A stretch of 64,000 bases of DNA from Bacillus sp. EB01 (GTDB taxonomy: Bacteria; Bacillota; Bacilli; Bacillales; Cytobacillaceae): the NCBI RefSeq assembly GCF_000613125.1, contig NZ_HG964497.1, forward strand, positions 3,412,153 through 3,476,152. The letters are read 5' to 3'. This document shows, one piece after another, positions 5,438 through 11,183 of the stretch (its first letter is position 1; every line of letters starts with the position of its first letter). The notes under the pieces were generated by a model. The model was not told where the DNA came from. It saw only the letters and a list, made by a program, of their open reading frames with translations, and searched no databases. A program made the translations under genes and the position numbers.

Positions 5438-5485
5438 ACACAATATATAGTGTTGTCGAAAAATTAATAAGCACTATATGTTGAT
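5438..5485 (+). promoter_or_regulatory. Pair of NrdR boxes upstream of nrdJ
   Basis: Two copies of the NrdR operator (consensus close to acaCwAtATaTwGtgt) are visible: ACACAATATATAGTGT at 5438-5453 and AGCACTATATGTTGAT at 5470-5485. Their starts are 32 bases apart, about three helical turns, which is the usual paired arrangement. NrdR is the nucleotide-sensing repressor of ribonucleotide reductase genes. The sites lie about 115-160 bases upstream of the nrdJ start. Otherwise the 5268-5599 stretch is AT-rich with no gene. Confidence 0.8.
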
Positions 5486-5599: not shown

Positions 5600-8500
5600 A
5601 TGTCTGTTGCGTTAAGGAAAAAACTAAATATTGATTTTGATAGGCTTAATGAAGATATCCGATTGTTTCCTCAGGTTCATCCTGTCACACCGGATATGCA
5701 CATTACACACAAAGGGGTATCCCGCCTGGTCATGCTCGACCGATATACATTCAAGGATACCGAAAAAATCACGTTAACCAAAGGTGATTTTGTCGTCCTG
5801 ACCGTTAAGGAGGACCCTAAGTTCCCTGCCAGGGGGCTTGGCTACATCCTCGAGATTGACTGGGAAAAGAAAGTTGCCCAGGTACAGGTTGATGAGGAAT
5901 TCAGGGGCGTGCTGGATACGGCGGAAGAAGTTCAAACAGGAGTGATTATCCGTTCCCTTGATGTGATTGAAAAGCCGCTTGAGATCTTCTACGAGCAGAT
6001 TGCCATGAGGAATGCAACAGGCCTTGCACAAGCGGAGAAAACCGAGGAGAAAAGGCTTGAGTGGTTCAATAAGTTCTACGAAGAGCTTGTGAACATGAAC
6101 TTTATTCCTGCGGGCCGCGTGCTGTATGGTGCTGGGGCAGGAACGGATGTAACGTTCTTTAACTGCTATGTTATGCCATTTGTCCAGGATTCCCGTGAAG
6201 GAATTTCCGACCACCGCAAAAAGGTAATGGAAATCATGAGCCGCGGCGGAGGGGTAGGAACAAACGGTTCAACACTTCGTCCTCGCGCTGCACTGGCGAG
6301 GGGCGTAAACGGTAAATCTTCCGGTTCGGTATCGTGGCTGGATGACATCGCCAAGCTGACACATTTGGTTGAGCAGGGCGGGTCAAGACGTGGTAAATGA
6401 GTGCCTCGTCTTTAAAAAAACCTCGTGAATTGCTGGGAACTCTTTACATGACTTGCTGGCTACAACGTAACTGGAAACAGTAAGCGTGAATGCTTGAAAA
6501 CAGCAAGTGGATAAAGACAATCAGCAGCCAAGCTCCTTTCATATGGAGAAGGTTCAACGGCCATCGAAAGCATACCTAGGTAGAAGCGAGTAGAGTAGGA
6601 TTCAAGCGGATCCGAAGTGCGAGGGCACTCTTTGTAGTGCAAGATATGGTCTGAACTCTAAGGCGACTTAGAGAGCTGAAGTAGCGACTCAGCGAAACAT
6701 ACTTGGCCCAAATGATCATGCTGGCGGACTGGCATCCTGATATTATCGAATTCATTGTTTCAAAAATGCAGAATCCTCGGATTCTCAGGTTTCTCATTGA
6801 GAATACAAATGATGAATGGATTAAAAAGCAGGCAAAGAGCAAGCTGAAATTTACACCGCTCACCGAGCAGGAGAAGGCCATGTACCAGGGAATCATTAAT
6901 TACAAGCATATCCCTGGGTACGGCGGATTCAGCGAAAAGATATTCGAAGATGTGGATGAAAAGCTTGAAACCGGCGGTACATATACCGTCCATAACCCTG
7001 ATTTCCTAACAGGGGCGAATATTTCAGTTACCCTGACAAAGGAATTCATGGAAGCAGTAGAAAATGACGAAGAGTATGAACTTCGCTTCCCTGCGACCGA
7101 AAGTTATGATGAAGAAATGATGAAGATTTACAATGAAGAATGGCATAAAGTCGGCGATGTCCGTGAATGGGAAAGAATGGGATACAAGGTTCGCACATAC
7201 CGAAAAATTAAGGCAAAAGAACTTTGGAATCTCATCAATATATGTGCTACCTACTCGGCTGAGCCGGGCATCTTCTTTATCGATAATGCAAATGACATGA
7301 CAAACGCCCAAGCGTACGGTCAGAAAGTGGTTGCAACCAACCCGTGTGGTAAAGTGGCTTAAATTGCCTCACGTTAAAAACCGCGGAATTAAGCGGGAAC
7401 CCTGAGACATAGCTTTTGAACCGAAGTAAATATTGACGAACCGAATATCTAAGGTTCAAATAGCTTGGGAATCCGAACCGAAGGCTGTTCTTAAAAGTTC
7501 AGTCAGGGGCAACGCATAGATGGTGAAACTCTTATGAGAATATAATCCATCCACGAGGCCGCGGCATTACACACTTGTAATGAAAAGATATGCTGAGCTA
7601 ACGGAAAATGAACCGTTAGAACCAGGGGATAAAAAGCCTCTGGGATAACAAATAACTGGAGCAGCCGCTCGCACCATTTTCAGTGTGTAATCTTGCAGCG
7701 GTGAACTTAGCTGAAATGGTTGATAAAGAAACAAAAACAGTGAACTTCGAAAAGTTAAAGCAAACAGTCGAAGTTGGTATTCGTATGCAAGATAACGTAA
7801 TCGATGCGACACCATACTTCTTAGAAGAAAATAAAAAACAAGCACTTGGTGAGCGTCGTGTTGGATTAGGTGTTATGGGACTACATGACTTACTCATCTA
7901 CTGTGAGACAGAATACGGCTCTGAAGAAGGAAATAAGCTTGTTGATCAAGTATTTGAAACAATTGCAACAACTGCCTATCGTACATCTGTTGAACTTGGA
8001 AAAGAAAAGGGATGCTTCCCATTCTTAACAGGTAAAACACAAGAAGAAACCAATCGTCTTCGCGAAGCGTTCATTAACACTGGTTATATGGAAAAAATGC
8101 CTGAAGACATTAGACAATCAATCTTAAAGCATGGAATTCGCAACTCACACCTACTAACTGTTGCACCTAAATAATTTGGGCTTTTATGTGGTGACACATA
8201 ATCGAAACCTCTTTAATTGCTGGGACACCCTAAAGCTGTTTCAACCACAACGTAATTGGTGACAATAAGCGTGATGGTTTGAAAATGAAACAGATATTAC
8301 AATGGGCAATCAGCAGGCAAGTTATCTTATTTAGCAGTAATAAGATAAAAGCTTCAACGACTAGAGCGGCAGCTCGTACCGCGCAAGCTATTGGCGTGGG
8401 AAATAGGAGGGCACTCACCCGAGTGTTTGATATAGTCTATCCTTGTGTGAAAGCACAAGCAGCTTATAAAGCGGTATAAAGAGTAGCGTCTTTATATGAA

Positions 8501-9132
8501 TAAAAGAGACAGGATCCACAGGTACGATGGTAGGTGTATCAACAGGACTTGAACCATACTTCTCGTTCTCATATTTTAGAAGTGGACGTTTAGGGAAGTT
8601 TATTGAAGTAAAAGCAGATATTGTTCAAGAGTATTTAAATCAAAATCCTGAAGCAGATCCAGAAAATCTACCACATTGGTTTGTAACAGCAATGGAATTA
8701 AAACCAGAAGCTCATGCAGATACACAATGTGTCATTCAACGCTGGATTGATAGCTCAATCAGTAAGACGGTTAATGCACCAAAAGGCTATAGTGTAGAAC
8801 AAGTAGAAAAAGTATACGAGCGTCTTTACAAAGGTGGAGCAAAGGGTGGTACTGTCTATGTAGACGGTTCGCGTGAAACCCAAGTTCTAACTTTAAAAGC
8901 TGAAGAAAATCGCGCGGACGATGTATATGACCAAAAACATACACATACGCAGACAACGGAGAAGCCACATGTAGTTTTACTAGATACCATTAATGATTTA
9001 CGCTCGACTTCTGTTACAATCGGTTCAGAAGTAGGTGACATATGCCCGGTGTGTCGTAAAGGGACAGTCGAAGAAATTGGTGGATGTAATACTTGTACAA
9101 ACTGTAACGCTCAATTGAAATGCGGGCTTTAA
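5600..9132 (+). CDS. nrdJ: Adenosylcobalamin-dependent (class II) ribonucleotide reductase, interrupted by three group I introns
   Basis: Reduces ribonucleotides to deoxyribonucleotides using a thiyl radical made from adenosylcobalamin. The coding sequence is split as join(5600..6394, 6706..7350, 7659..8168, 8509..9132). Exon lengths of 795, 645, 510 and 624 are all multiples of three, giving an uninterrupted 857-residue protein, the usual size for this family. The start ATG at 5600 has AAAGGAGA upstream; a GTG two codons earlier is less likely. Landmarks: FFNCYVMPF (exon 1), GGSRRG|AQMIMLADWHPD across intron 1, NPCG|EQPLAPFSVCN with the radical cysteine and catalytic glutamate on opposite sides of intron 2, HLLTVAP|TGSTGTMVG across intron 3, and a C-terminal cysteine cluster (CPVC, CNTCTNC). 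Exons 3-4 use no AGG arginine codons (0 of 16) against 7 of 19 in exon 1, so the 3' half appears to have a different origin. NrdR boxes upstream imply repression when deoxynucleotides are plentiful. Confidence 0.93.
6395..6705 (+). ncRNA. Group I intron 1 in nrdJ (311 nt, no internal ORF)
   Basis: The upstream exon ends in U (..AGACGTGGT) and the intron ends in G before GCC. P1 is visible: exon AAGACGTGGT pairs with the guide GCCTCGTCTT at 6403-6412, leaving a U.G pair at the splice site and one internal U-U mismatch. Core elements by eye: P near AATTGCTGGGAA (6428), Q AATCAGCAGCCAAGC (6519-6533), R GTTCAACGGCC (6552-6562), S AAGATATGGTC (6641-6651). R and S pair as P7 (GGCCAT/ATGGTC). Translation reading into the intron meets TGA after one codon. 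Joining the exons restores SRRGAQMIML exactly. Confidence 0.9.
7351..7658 (+). ncRNA. Group I intron 2 in nrdJ (308 nt, no internal ORF)
   Basis: Inserted between the codons for Gly and Glu of NPCGEQ. The exon ends ..CGTGTGGT and pairs with GCCTCACG at 7366-7373, with U.G at the splice site and the same internal U-U mismatch position as intron 1. The intron ends in G (..AATAACTG) before GAGCAGCCG. Core by eye: P AATTAAGCGGGAA (7387-7399), R GGCAACGCATAGATGG (7508-7523), S GAGAATATAATCCATCC (7536-7552), with GATGG/CCATC forming P7. Its core differs clearly from introns 1 and 3. An in-frame TAA occurs four codons into the intron. Confidence 0.87.
8169..8508 (+). ncRNA. Group I intron 3 in nrdJ (340 nt, no convincing internal ORF)
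   Basis: Lies between TVAP and TGST codons. The exon ends ..GCACCT and the intron ends ..AAAAGAG. P1 is shorter: CCT at the exon end pairs with GGG at 8178-8180 (U.G at the splice site), extended inward by AAAT/ATTT. Core: P AATTGCTGGGA (8215-8225), Q AATCAGCAGGCAAG (8308-8321), R TTCAACGACTAGAG (8353-8366), S TTGATATAGTCT (8427-8438), with GACTA/TAGTC as P7 and a CTTGTG/CACAAG hairpin after S. The close match in P and Q to intron 1 suggests the same subgroup. TAA follows the first intron codon. Confidence 0.88.
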
Positions 9133-9216
9133 CTTTTCGAAAGATAAGAAGGTATGGCTTTAAAAAAGTTTCGATGTTAATAAAAAAGATCGATTAAAAT
9201 AGTCGTCTTGTATAGT

Positions 9217-9251
9217 GAGGAATGTTGTTAATTCAGCATTCCTTATTTTTT
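9217..9251 (+). terminator. Terminator after nrdJ
   Basis: AGGAATG / CATTCCT stem with a 12-base loop, followed by TATTTTTTT. The rest of 9133-9457 is AT-rich with no gene. Confidence 0.8.
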
Positions 9252-9457
9252 TGAATAATTTTTTCTTACAATATTCTCTATTGTAATTATTTGGCGAACA
9301 TGTGTTTTTATCTTATAATAATATTAAACAACCTTAAGAGTTTGAATTTACTTTTAATTTACTAATATAACAACTGAACAGTAAATAAAGAAATTAATAA
9401 ATCTATTAAATATGTATTTGATTTTATATAGAACCAATAAATTTCGAGGGATAAATA

Positions 9458-10480
9458 ATGAGTAATAATAAAGAGGAAAACAACTCTATGTTTAGTATTA
9501 GAAGTTATCCCCATTATAAGGAGTTTGAATATTATGAATGCATAATTTGCCAACGTGAGTTTCCTTCGCCCTTAAGGTACTCCAAAAAGAGATTATTTAC
9601 TTGTAGTAAATATTGTGAAAACGTAAGAAATGGACTTTTAAAAATTAAAGGATTTTATCGTCTTTGCAAAGTTTGTGATAAACCGATTTGGGTTATGTCC
9701 TGTCATTCTAAGACAAAATTCTTTTGCTCACAACTTTGTAAAAGTCTGAGCCAAACATTCTGTCTTTCGTTAATTTCTGATGGTTTAAAGACAGGTGCTA
9801 AAAAATATTACGGTCCCAATTGGATACAACAGAGGAAAAGGGCAAGAAAACGTGATAGTTATACATGTCAAAATCCAAATTGTAGAATAACAGAAAAAGA
9901 ATACGGGCAGGAATTATCAGTTCATCATAAAAAACCATTTGTATTTTTTAAAGATTATTTTGAAGCGAATAAATTAGAAAATCTTATTTCTTTATGTGAA
10001 CCATGTCATCGAAAAGAACATGTTGGAGAACAACATCCTTTAAAATTTGATACGGAAAAGATTGTTTTTGAGAATGCCTTGAATAGGGTAGGAGCAAAAC
10101 AGTTGGAAGTCGCAAAAAAGGTTATTGATTTATTACTAAACACGGACAAATCCTTAAAGAACATTTCTGAGGAAACAGGATTATCGTATATTAGAGTTCG
10201 CTCCATTTACATTGGAGAAAGGTGGAAACAATTATATTCTAAACCGCCTAGAGAGATAAGGCCGAGAACTATGAGCCTAGCTAAAGATCCGGAAACATCG
10301 AGGGAAAAAATAAAAAAAGCCGTTTACTTACTACTAAATACTGATTTAAAAATAGAGGAAATAGTCGAAAAAACAGGAGTATCGAAGACAAATCTGTACA
10401 GAATTTATAATGGAAAAACAAATCAGGATCTTTATGAAATTGCACCTCGTTTAATTAGACCTAGAGGTAAGGTTAAATAA
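9458..10480 (+). CDS. Free-standing HNH endonuclease with zinc fingers and two C-terminal DNA-binding repeats
   Basis: 340 residues, strongly AT-rich compared with the host genes. Residues 28-53 and 70-94 each hold a C-x2-C ... C-x3-C zinc-finger-like motif. An HNH nuclease domain follows at about 126-190: paired cysteines C137/C142, HH at 156-157, NLISLC, and C183-H184 with H188. Two related repeats of about 50 residues (219-270 and 286-336), each containing LLLNTD...I.E.TG.S....R.IY and ending IRPR, look like helix-turn-helix specificity modules. Start ATG at 9458 after GAGGGATAAATA. It stands downstream of intron-bearing nrdJ and is separated from it by a terminator. A role as homing endonuclease for the nrdJ introns is inferred from position, domains and composition; a restriction-type or phage HNH function is also possible. 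Confidence 0.8.
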   Translation: MSNNKEENNSMFSIRSYPHYKEFEYYECIICQREFPSPLRYSKKRLFTCSKYCENVRNGLLKIKGFYRLCKVCDKPIWVMSCHSKTKFFCSQLCKSLSQTFCLSLISDGLKTGAKKYYGPNWIQQRKRARKRDSYTCQNPNCRITEKEYGQELSVHHKKPFVFFKDYFEANKLENLISLCEPCHRKEHVGEQHPLKFDTEKIVFENALNRVGAKQLEVAKKVIDLLLNTDKSLKNISEETGLSYIRVRSIYIGERWKQLYSKPPREIRPRTMSLAKDPETSREKIKKAVYLLLNTDLKIEEIVEKTGVSKTNLYRIYNGKTNQDLYEIAPRLIRPRGKVK

Positions 10481-11183
10481 TGAATAATGGATACCTAATT
10501 CCATATCCAAATATCAAAATTTCATTATCCTTCATTTCAACTCTAGGATTAAAGATATTAACTCAAGTTTCGGAGTGAAAAAACCCACTTAAATTCGTAT
10601 CCGGTTTAAACCGAAATATTTATTAAGAATTAATAATATTTAGGGAAAGGATGTTGTATAGTTTTTGTTGCTACTGTTATTCCGTGAATACACAAGAAGT
10701 TGACTTTACGCAACAAGTAATCAGGATTTCTGAATTTGATTATAACTTATTAATTAGCCTAACTGGAATTTGTAGCATCTCAACAGTTCCACAATCGAGA
10801 GCGATTGTGGAAAAAACGTAATCACACTTCTTAAAGTAATGGGGGCTTTAGTTTAGATCAATCATAGAAAATGATCAATCTGTTTACAAATATTGCTCAA
10901 TGTTTCACTCCGCATTTCTTTCTCCTCGGCGCGAGCGCCTGCGGGATCCCACTGACCTTTTCTCCTGTAGGAGTCTTAGCGCCATCCGCTTCAATCAATA
11001 AATTTTCTGTATTGCAGTAATTCTTTAGTTTAACTTATATAGCTGATTTTATTGAAAGTATTGATGCCTACAGGTTTTCACAAAAACTGCAATAGGAATA
11101 ATTTGCTTTCCTGTTTTTCTGTTCAATCCTCCTTTTTTGCTGATACTACTAGCAAGACTTTTTGCAAAAAGAGGGATGAACTT
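10481..11183. other. Intergenic region between the HNH gene and splB: hairpin and repeat remnant, no gene
   Basis: No convincing ORF. AT-rich sequence up to about 10.86 kb resembles the HNH gene in composition. A perfect hairpin TTCCACAATCG / CGATTGTGGAA lies at 10787-10812 with an AGAG loop and no T tract on either strand. A 12-bp palindrome CGGTTTAAACCG occurs near 10.6 kb. From about 10915 to 11001 there is a remnant of the interspersed repeat described at 21443-21939. The last 180 bases must hold the splB promoter, which I could not define. Confidence 0.6.
10915..11001. repeat. Truncated copy of the MITE-like interspersed repeat
   Basis: Contains TCCTCGGCGCGAGCGCCTG, CCCACTGACCTTTTCTCC and CCGCTTCAATCAA, matching the right-hand part of the element at 21443-21939 and the inverted copy at 48365-48986. 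No terminal repeats are left. Confidence 0.75.

Follow-up and report, generated by a model that had tools for sequence, protein, structure and literature searches.

The window analysed here (64,000 nt of Bacillus sp. EB01 DNA) carries on its forward strand, as for all features described below, an nrdJ gene split into four exons: exon 1 (5600..6394; 795 nt, 265 codons), exon 2 (6706..7350; 645 nt), exon 3 (7659..8168; 510 nt) and exon 4 with the stop codon (8509..9132; 624 nt). The exons were assigned by profile match and junction fit; exon 2 is 92.6% identical to that of the congener G007, and exon 3 is foreign relative to the genus. Each exon is a multiple of three, and joined they give 857 codons, in agreement with the initial annotation. 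The exon pieces match consecutive parts (2-264, 266-481, 489-650 and 650-858 of 858) of NCBIfam NF005991, the model for vitamin B12-dependent ribonucleotide reductase (RNR), with 486.5, 417.2, 314.2 and 388.8 bits, respectively, these being piecewise scores while the cut-off of 854 refers to the whole protein. As judged by these matches along the whole protein sequence, the window nrdJ is a class II (B12-dependent) RNR gene. Its dN/dS was 0.02-0.09 in 6/10 comparisons (those with finite dS), and this purifying selection on the coding sequence indicates that nrdJ works. The palindrome ACACAATATATAGTGT (5438..5453), read from the sequence upstream of nrdJ, resembles the NrdR-box consensus.

Group I character of the three introns

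The exons are separated by segments of 311 nt (intron 1, site A1, 6395..6705), 308 nt (intron 2, site B, 7351..7658) and 340 nt (intron 3, site C, 8169..8508), lengths that proved exact to the base when the junctions were fitted to the uninterrupted gene of the congener G003. That each intron follows U and ends in G, as previously proposed, was borne out by the same fit, which favoured these ends among near-equal positions. The P1 helix with U.G at the splice site was likewise recovered, by counting for intron 2 and by reading off the sequence for introns 1 and 3. The RF00028 covariance search, which had been put forward as a check, was positive for intron 3 (72.2 bits) and intron 1 (63.7 bits) at a cut-off of 50 and negative for intron 2, which did not match this model even at E up to 1. 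The only Rfam match of intron 2 was to a snoRNA and was judged to be due to chance.

With regard to intron 2, pairs were counted on homologues. Its core comprises 62 pairs over 20 homologues, with 99.1% of cells paired and 30 pairs changed on both sides, and 0/500 shuffles were as good as this pair model, the structure itself having come from the sequences used for the counting. P7 consists of six pairs, 100% paired, one of which shows a change on both sides. Besides P1, the group I hallmarks found were P3-P8, a P7 pseudoknot and the terminal G, together with a P7.1 (IA-like); the fold z was -3.27 with short exon ends included. RNAalifold without pseudoknots produced a different P4-P6 and was replaced by a parse from column covariation. 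Taken together, Rfam, the junctions, the pair counts and selection support, for all three segments, the original proposal that they are group I introns and that the class II RNR gene they interrupt is functional.

None of the introns contains an endonuclease-sized ORF, intron 3 holding one 66-codon TTG frame. An in-frame stop lies 2-4 codons past the 5' splice site in each of them (6398-6400 in intron 1, 7360-7362 in intron 2 and 8172-8174 in intron 3). Self-splicing at A1, B and C would restore the nrdJ transcript in vivo, and the early stops may serve to halt ribosomes ahead of the ribozyme. Early in-frame stops have also been described for bacterial group I introns in passages of a 2014 review (PMC3984707). 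The chromosomal examples given there are the flagellin, recA and nrdE genes of Bacillus and relatives and cyanobacterial RNR genes; the system described here differs from these in that the host gene is a class II nrdJ, introns occupy seven sites in it and occur in half of the family's genomes, and the endonuclease is free-standing.

Three introns in a chromosomal nrdJ had been regarded as a much rarer arrangement, a view that does not hold for the host family: nrdJ introns occur in 94/184 nrdJ-bearing genomes at seven sites, and nine genomes have three or more. Site A1 is occupied in 17/99 loci and site B in 42/99, and intron C was found in only five genomes in this analysis. A recount across nrdJ introns gave 132 stops and 29 C' introns. 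About half of this family's nrdJ genes are thus at risk of being annotated as broken.

The HNH gene and the imported block around intron 3

A free-standing HNH endonuclease gene (9458..10480; 340 aa) begins 325 nt behind nrdJ. Its HNH domain (PF01844) scored 29.8 bits against a cut-off of 21.4 (6.9e-07), its dN/dS is 0.11-0.17, and it gave one match in the genome. Close homologues within the family number three (G000, G004 and G118), and each of them directly follows an nrdJ that carries intron C. Relatives at a greater distance (identity of about 40-47%) are encoded inside introns at C', 6 nt from site C, in nine family genomes, and inside C' introns in 6/8 other loci examined as well. They share the HNH domain and a zinc-ribbon-like part with the window HNH, which differs in lying outside its intron and aligns with them only over about residues 20-195, whereas its C-terminal helix-turn-helix-like part does not. 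An AlphaFold model computed without an alignment had a mean pLDDT of 39 and was set aside. Before the HNH gene lies a LexA-box-like site, GAACATGTGTTT (9296..9307), which has one mismatch to GAACN4GTTC and is weak alone. LexA boxes were also counted over whole C' introns, leaving out six other-order C' introns, G079, and G077 and G085, which were mis-cut 301-nt pieces.

Relatives were also found in phages. Enterococcus phage Sw5 (ON286976.1) has a 41.7% HNH homologue inside an nrdE intron at a position homologous to site C. The two systems share homologous codons at the insertion site (VAP|NGS vs VAP|TGS), a similar intron 5' half and a homologous HNH, but Sw5 encodes the HNH within the intron, and the gene interrupted there is a class Ib nrdE. 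The Sw5 intron had no Rfam match at E up to 0.01. Phage Carl (ON113167.1) is related, as seen by HNH match only. Scanning viral contigs for the HNH yielded one 44% relative (L238), and scanning them for the 5' junction of site C yielded 43 stretches, none with an HNH match and none recognisable by eye as an RNR exon. Intron-core relatives in phage were many, with no record covering 80% of a query.

Comparisons with congeners point to an imported block, or conversion tract, at 7659..10500 (edges approximate), which comprises exon 3, intron 3, exon 4 and the HNH gene. Identity to the sister species G005 is 94-98% in the window flanks and in exon 1 but no more than 71-77% in exons 3-4. With G004, identity rises from a background of 72-82% to 99.7% in intron 3 and 97.0% in HNH; intron 3 is also 99.4% identical to that of G007. 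The G007 tract is confined to 38 nt at the end of exon 3, intron 3 itself and 116 nt at the start of exon 4, the latter with a single difference (nt 57). A clade of G000, G004 and G007 was rejected for exon 1 (AU p 2.8e-47), while G000 and G004 group together (100/99) in exon 4 from nt 141. Within exon 4 the G004 tract is interrupted by a native patch (nt 63 to about nt 141), which implies that either the repair was patchy or there were at least two events. Flanking exon has thus been co-converted in the recent recipients, and the tracts of the three congeners, although different in extent, have in common intron 3 and its near flanks, as expected if the break had occurred there. It appears that intron 3, along with the HNH gene that follows nrdJ, recently jumped from one species to another. 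The initial annotation had noted neither the HNH gene nor the imported block, and it did not mention the phage intron at the homologous position.

How intron 3 may have moved

The locus probably represents a working nrdJ with three self-splicing group I introns, of which intron 3 arrived recently by collaborative homing with the HNH endonuclease. An ORF-less intron is here accompanied by an adjacent free-standing endonuclease gene and, since the latter lies outside the intron, just behind nrdJ, the two would travel linked but separate. The HNH would recognise conserved nrdJ sequence around site C and nick or cut the intron-less allele, whereupon repair templated by the donor would transfer intron 3 together with adjoining exon sequence and, in some cases, the HNH gene. 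The pattern around intron 3 is consistent with chromosomal collaborative homing in bacteria. In the phage cases (Zeng et al. 2009; Bonocora and Shub 2009), as outlined in the 2014 review (PMC3984707), an ORF-less intron is likewise paired with a free-standing endonuclease whose target is the insertion site; those genes belong to phages, whereas here the genes are chromosomal and the target is predicted, and an intron-borne relative exists for the window HNH.

Against this explanation, intron C is known from five genomes only, and the tract with HNH could stem from ordinary homologous recombination. We consider it rather unlikely that the introns are real but that intron 3 and HNH were co-imported in this way, by transformation or phage transduction, with HNH as a passive neighbour having its own target. 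Co-transfer would be expected from physical linkage, the tract ends just behind HNH, G007 and G013 have intron C but no HNH, and an HNH homologue (52%, in G299) lies in a phage-like gene neighbourhood, 11 kb of which gave no match to nrdJ. Such passive import accounts less well for tracts that differ in extent while sharing intron 3 and near flanks, and for HNH relatives encoded in C' introns and, in Sw5, in an intron at the counterpart of site C. Spread by reverse splicing with no endonuclease agrees with the lack of an endonuclease-sized ORF in intron 3 but is very improbable, since reverse splicing and reverse transcription should bring little exon and both G004 and G000 have long exon tracts and HNH. 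It is most unlikely that nrdJ is a decaying pseudogene with insertions that no longer splice: splicing is predicted here from DNA sequence, and class I small-subunit genes in 8/8 genomes of the genus mean that nrdJ may be dispensable, but besides the low dN/dS the NF005991 segments are free of frame breaks, splice sites and group I cores are intact, and identical splice sites recur in many genomes.

Returning to homing, a broader and more tentative idea is that the nrdJ of these Bacillales might be a landing platform on which introns use seven or more sites and endonucleases of several families occur, with the HNHs under LexA (SOS) control and the window pair a case of chromosomal collaborative homing that moved between species of one genus. 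If LexA control applies, DNA damage would trigger homing at a time when RecA repair is under way.

The occurrence of the same intron in tracts of three congeners contrasts with the statement, in a passage of the 2014 review (PMC3984707), that there is little evidence of horizontal intron movement among bacterial species. One endonuclease family is represented here by matched copies that are intron-borne, free-standing or displaced, which bears on the assembly of mobile introns. With three congeners carrying differing tracts and a sister species as control, ordinary constructs are enough for a test of homing, and the spread of introns on bacterial chromosomes thereby becomes testable.

Structure of the split nrdJ and its introns

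The nrdJ gene of Bacillus sp. EB01 lies within bases 3412153-3476152 of a 5.28-Mb genome assembled as a single contig, and is divided into four pieces (5600-6394, 6706-7350, 7659-8168 and 8509-9132) by introns of 311, 308 and 340 nt. Every junction falls after U and every intron has G at its 3' end. The proteins encoded by the exons match successive segments of NF005991. The initial annotation of a gene split by three introns is confirmed. For exons 1-2 the dN/dS was 0.019-0.045 against the congeners G005, G007, G004 and G003 (dS above 2 for G004 and G003), and for exons 3-4 it was 0.091 against G004 and 0.062 against G118 from another genus, with junction-near codons excluded and dS saturated in four other comparisons.

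With regard to the assignment of the introns to group I, introns 1 and 3 scored 63.7 and 72.2 bits with the RF00028 model (cut-off 50), while RF00028 gave no match to intron 2. An intron at exactly the same nucleotide as intron 2 (site B) was found in 42 of the 99 nrdJ loci examined; 26 of these introns are shorter than 330 nt, 20 being of the intron 2 type and six of a shorter type (176-201 nt). The 20 sequences share a P1 helix (CGUGUGGU/GCCUCACG) that places U.G at the splice site, followed by P3, P4, P5, P6, P7 (GCAUA/UAUGC), P7.1, P8 and P9. Subgroup IA introns typically have such a P7.1, located between P7 and P3. Over these sequences the 62 core pairs were paired in 99.1% of cells, with changes on both sides in 30 pairs; as the structure was built from the same 20 sequences, the paired percentage is favoured, the counts of both-side changes less so. 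None of 500 shuffles equalled the pair count, slid versions paired to 32-42%, and the fold of intron 2 itself (z -3.27) was matched in stability by none of 100 shuffles. The scores of introns 1 and 3 and the core covariation of intron 2 thus support the group I reading. The shorter site B type (G006, G133, G120, G093, G149 and G132) and the long type share one insertion nucleotide, and both occur inside one genus (short in G006, long in the window genome G000 and in G001).

Elsewhere in the window genome, two RF00028 matches (74.1 and 89.5 bits) split a flagellin-like ORF at G000:C1:915160-915949 (L022), which by eye we take to be flagellin, a known kind of intron site. A sub-threshold match (35.1 bits) at G000:C1:743187-743461 (L023) abuts the 3' end of a tmRNA match.

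Intron sites in nrdJ across the family

nrdJ was detected in 184 of the 193 family genomes searched. We examined 99 loci, namely the window and 98 that were fetched (open frame below 700 aa, plus the uninterrupted G003); the remaining 85 nrdJ genomes, with long open frames, lie outside this set. Introns were found in 94 of the 99 loci, 149 in total at seven sites, given here by CDS nucleotide with the number of introns: A0 789/790 (19), A0b 792 (1), A1 795 (17), A2 819 (36), B 1440 (42), C 1950 (5) and C' 1956 (29, including those of G077, G079 and G085, which the search had bridged and which were added by hand). Introns 1, 2 and 3 of the window occupy A1, B and C. One intron was present in 49 genes, two in 36, three in eight and four in one. 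The initial annotation had called the three-intron arrangement rare, a view that finds no support among these loci, where nine genes carry three or more. A1 never occurs together with A0 or A2, nor C together with C', and a 30-nt mini-exon separates the two introns in 12 of 13 A0+A2 pairs. Among the 99 loci, G003 is intron-free, G078 is truncated by a contig end, and the A1 fit of G050 (51 nt) is a misfit of a longer interruption. Insertions of 2.7-3.0 kb lie within nrdJ of G066, G165 and G169. Those of G165, G169 and G069, at CDS nt 1377-1380 and 1578, measure 2.6-2.7 kb and resemble one another at their ends.

In the order sample, nrdJ was matched in 346 of 397 genomes, and 59 of the 134 other-family rows listed have open frames below 700 aa, to be read as frame lengths and not as introns. 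The 80 named nrdJ loci retained from 203, a set from which records of the window genome itself may be missing, are from Mesobacillus, Neobacillus, Cytobacillus, Peribacillus, Robertmurraya, Rossellomorea, 'Bacillus' and similar genera.

An in-frame stop follows the 5' splice site within 13 codons at all 132 placed sites (each A0+A2 pair counted once), at codon 1 for A0, A0b and A2, 2-10 for A1, 2-7 for B, 2 for C and 13 for C'. In a passage of one published account, such an early stop is read as keeping ribosomes off the ribozyme (PMC3984707).

The HNH endonuclease, its relatives and candidate LexA control

Behind nrdJ, a free-standing ORF at 9458-10480 (+) encodes a 340-aa protein with an HNH domain, the sole match in its genome. 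Its dN/dS (0.17 against G004, 0.11 against G118) denotes purifying selection. Relatives occur in 14 of the 193 family genomes. The close ones, in G000, G004 and G118, each lie directly behind an nrdJ bearing intron C, and nine lie within C' introns (G077, G079, G085, G097, G106, G110, G136, G144 and G179), some of them with internal stops. G133 and G134 (loci L159 and L158) have a broken HNH gene in a displaced C' intron piece behind nrdJ, followed by an exon 4 fragment, and the nrdJ ahead of it itself carries a 300-nt C' intron. Such displacement is one way, visible here, in which an intron-borne HNH gene becomes free-standing. A search behind the window nrdJ found no C' intron remnant, and in G118 the match was of 33 nt only, spanning the promoter palindrome GAACN4GTTC.

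HNH relatives were found in 13 of the 397 genomes of the order sample, nine of them outside the family; eight of the nine were inspected, and six lie inside C' introns. The relative in G542 adjoins a distant RNR-like sequence, and that in G299 (52%) lies amid phage-like genes, with no nrdJ match in the surrounding 11 kb. Twenty phage records matched. The best of the 15 listed, Enterococcus phage Sw5, has its HNH inside a 1173-nt intron of a class Ib nrdE, placed between the codons for ...LAVAP and NGS..., the nrdJ equivalent being ...LTVAP and TGS. The intron starts are AAATAATATTGGGC in Sw5 and AAATAATTTGGGC in the window. Rfam does not call the Sw5 intron, which by likeness is a putative group I intron. 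Among scanned representatives of other sites, A0 carries LAGLIDADG endonucleases, A2 carries HNH combined with helix-turn-helix, and one B intron carries HNH_5, the usual B ORF having no Pfam match. Some site B introns (e.g. G017, G119) contain an endonuclease-like ORF that begins MNRGYAGFYKG; for the G017 ORF, Pfam gave no match up to E 0.1.

In Bacillus, the palindrome GAACN4GTTC forms the core of the LexA box. It was found in 11 of the 12 introns longer than 900 nt at site A2 and in the single one there of 696 nt, in five of six C' introns above 900 nt, and in two of 11 A0-site elements above 900 nt (G178 and G181, in each of which an A0+A2 pair carries an A2-type ORF). A single occurrence, at nt 890, was seen among the 13 long introns at site B, and the palindrome was absent from all 83 introns below 450 nt and from the seven elements at A0 and B that measure 450-900 nt. 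In seven introns inspected, a LexA-box-like palindrome stands immediately before the endonuclease start. The free-standing HNH gene of G118 has an exact copy, and that of the window a putative LexA-box-like site, GAACATGTGTTT, with one mismatch, a weak kind of site of which the recA region of this genome has three in 3.8 kb, one of them upstream of recA. Among the papers listed by a literature search on homing endonucleases, LexA and SOS, none deals with such control, judging by title and abstract start.

A mosaic nrdJ and the spread of the intron-HNH pair

Exon 3, intron 3, exon 4 and the HNH gene make up an imported block. The sister species G005 is 97.6% identical to the window upstream, 95.9% in exon 1 and 94.2% in the downstream gene, but its identity drops to 73.5-76.5% for exon 3 and to 71-77% for exon 4, and the search of the 193 family genomes found no HNH relative in it. 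G004 is 81.4% identical in exon 1, vs 98.0% in the final 98 nt of exon 3, 99.7% in intron 3, 96.6% in late exon 4 and 97.0% in HNH; for G007, intron 3 is 99.4% identical. Base by base, the tract shared with G007 starts 38 nt before the end of exon 3 and runs on to nt 116 of exon 4, with a single difference. The one shared with G004 starts 155 nt before the end of exon 3, where it has two differences, and first runs on to nt 62 of exon 4, where it has one. Exon 4 of G004 is native-like from nt 63 to about 141; from there on G004 again shares the window sequence as far as the HNH gene and through it, apart from scattered differences.

In the window itself, foreign sequence sets in at the start of exon 3. 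The first 242 nt of this exon are, among five compared, nearest to other genera (G118 79.3%, G013 81.0%) vs 71.9-73.6% for G004, G007 and G005. Window exon 2 is nearest to G007 (92.6% vs 82.3% for G005), and there must therefore be more than one mosaic boundary. The exon 1 tree (14 rows) joined G000 and G005 (98/96) and rejected {G000,G004,G007} (AU p 2.8e-47), a group chosen after the intron was seen and before the tree. From nt 141, the exon 4 tree (10 rows) joined G000 and G004 (100/99) beside G118 and G013, away from the remaining genus. When only the 96 nt closest to site C were used, G000, G004 and G007 grouped together at modest support (86/91). Behind HNH, window 10501-11050 is low in G+C and mostly unalignable to G004 or G005.

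Meng et al. reportedly described in 2007 a bacterial RNR gene that carries a group I intron. Judging by titles and abstract openings, no paper listed in the searches, which leave out most subscription journals, concerns introns in Bacillales nrdJ. In 2009 RNRdb put the group I introns of its RNR entries at more than 100, and some of the nrdJ introns may already be among them, as they are unnamed in the passages concerned. The published passages considered here are from PMC3984707, PMC2795772 and PMC3653736. What is new here is a chromosomal intron-HNH pair, recently spread, together with the site-rich nrdJ platform that surrounds it.
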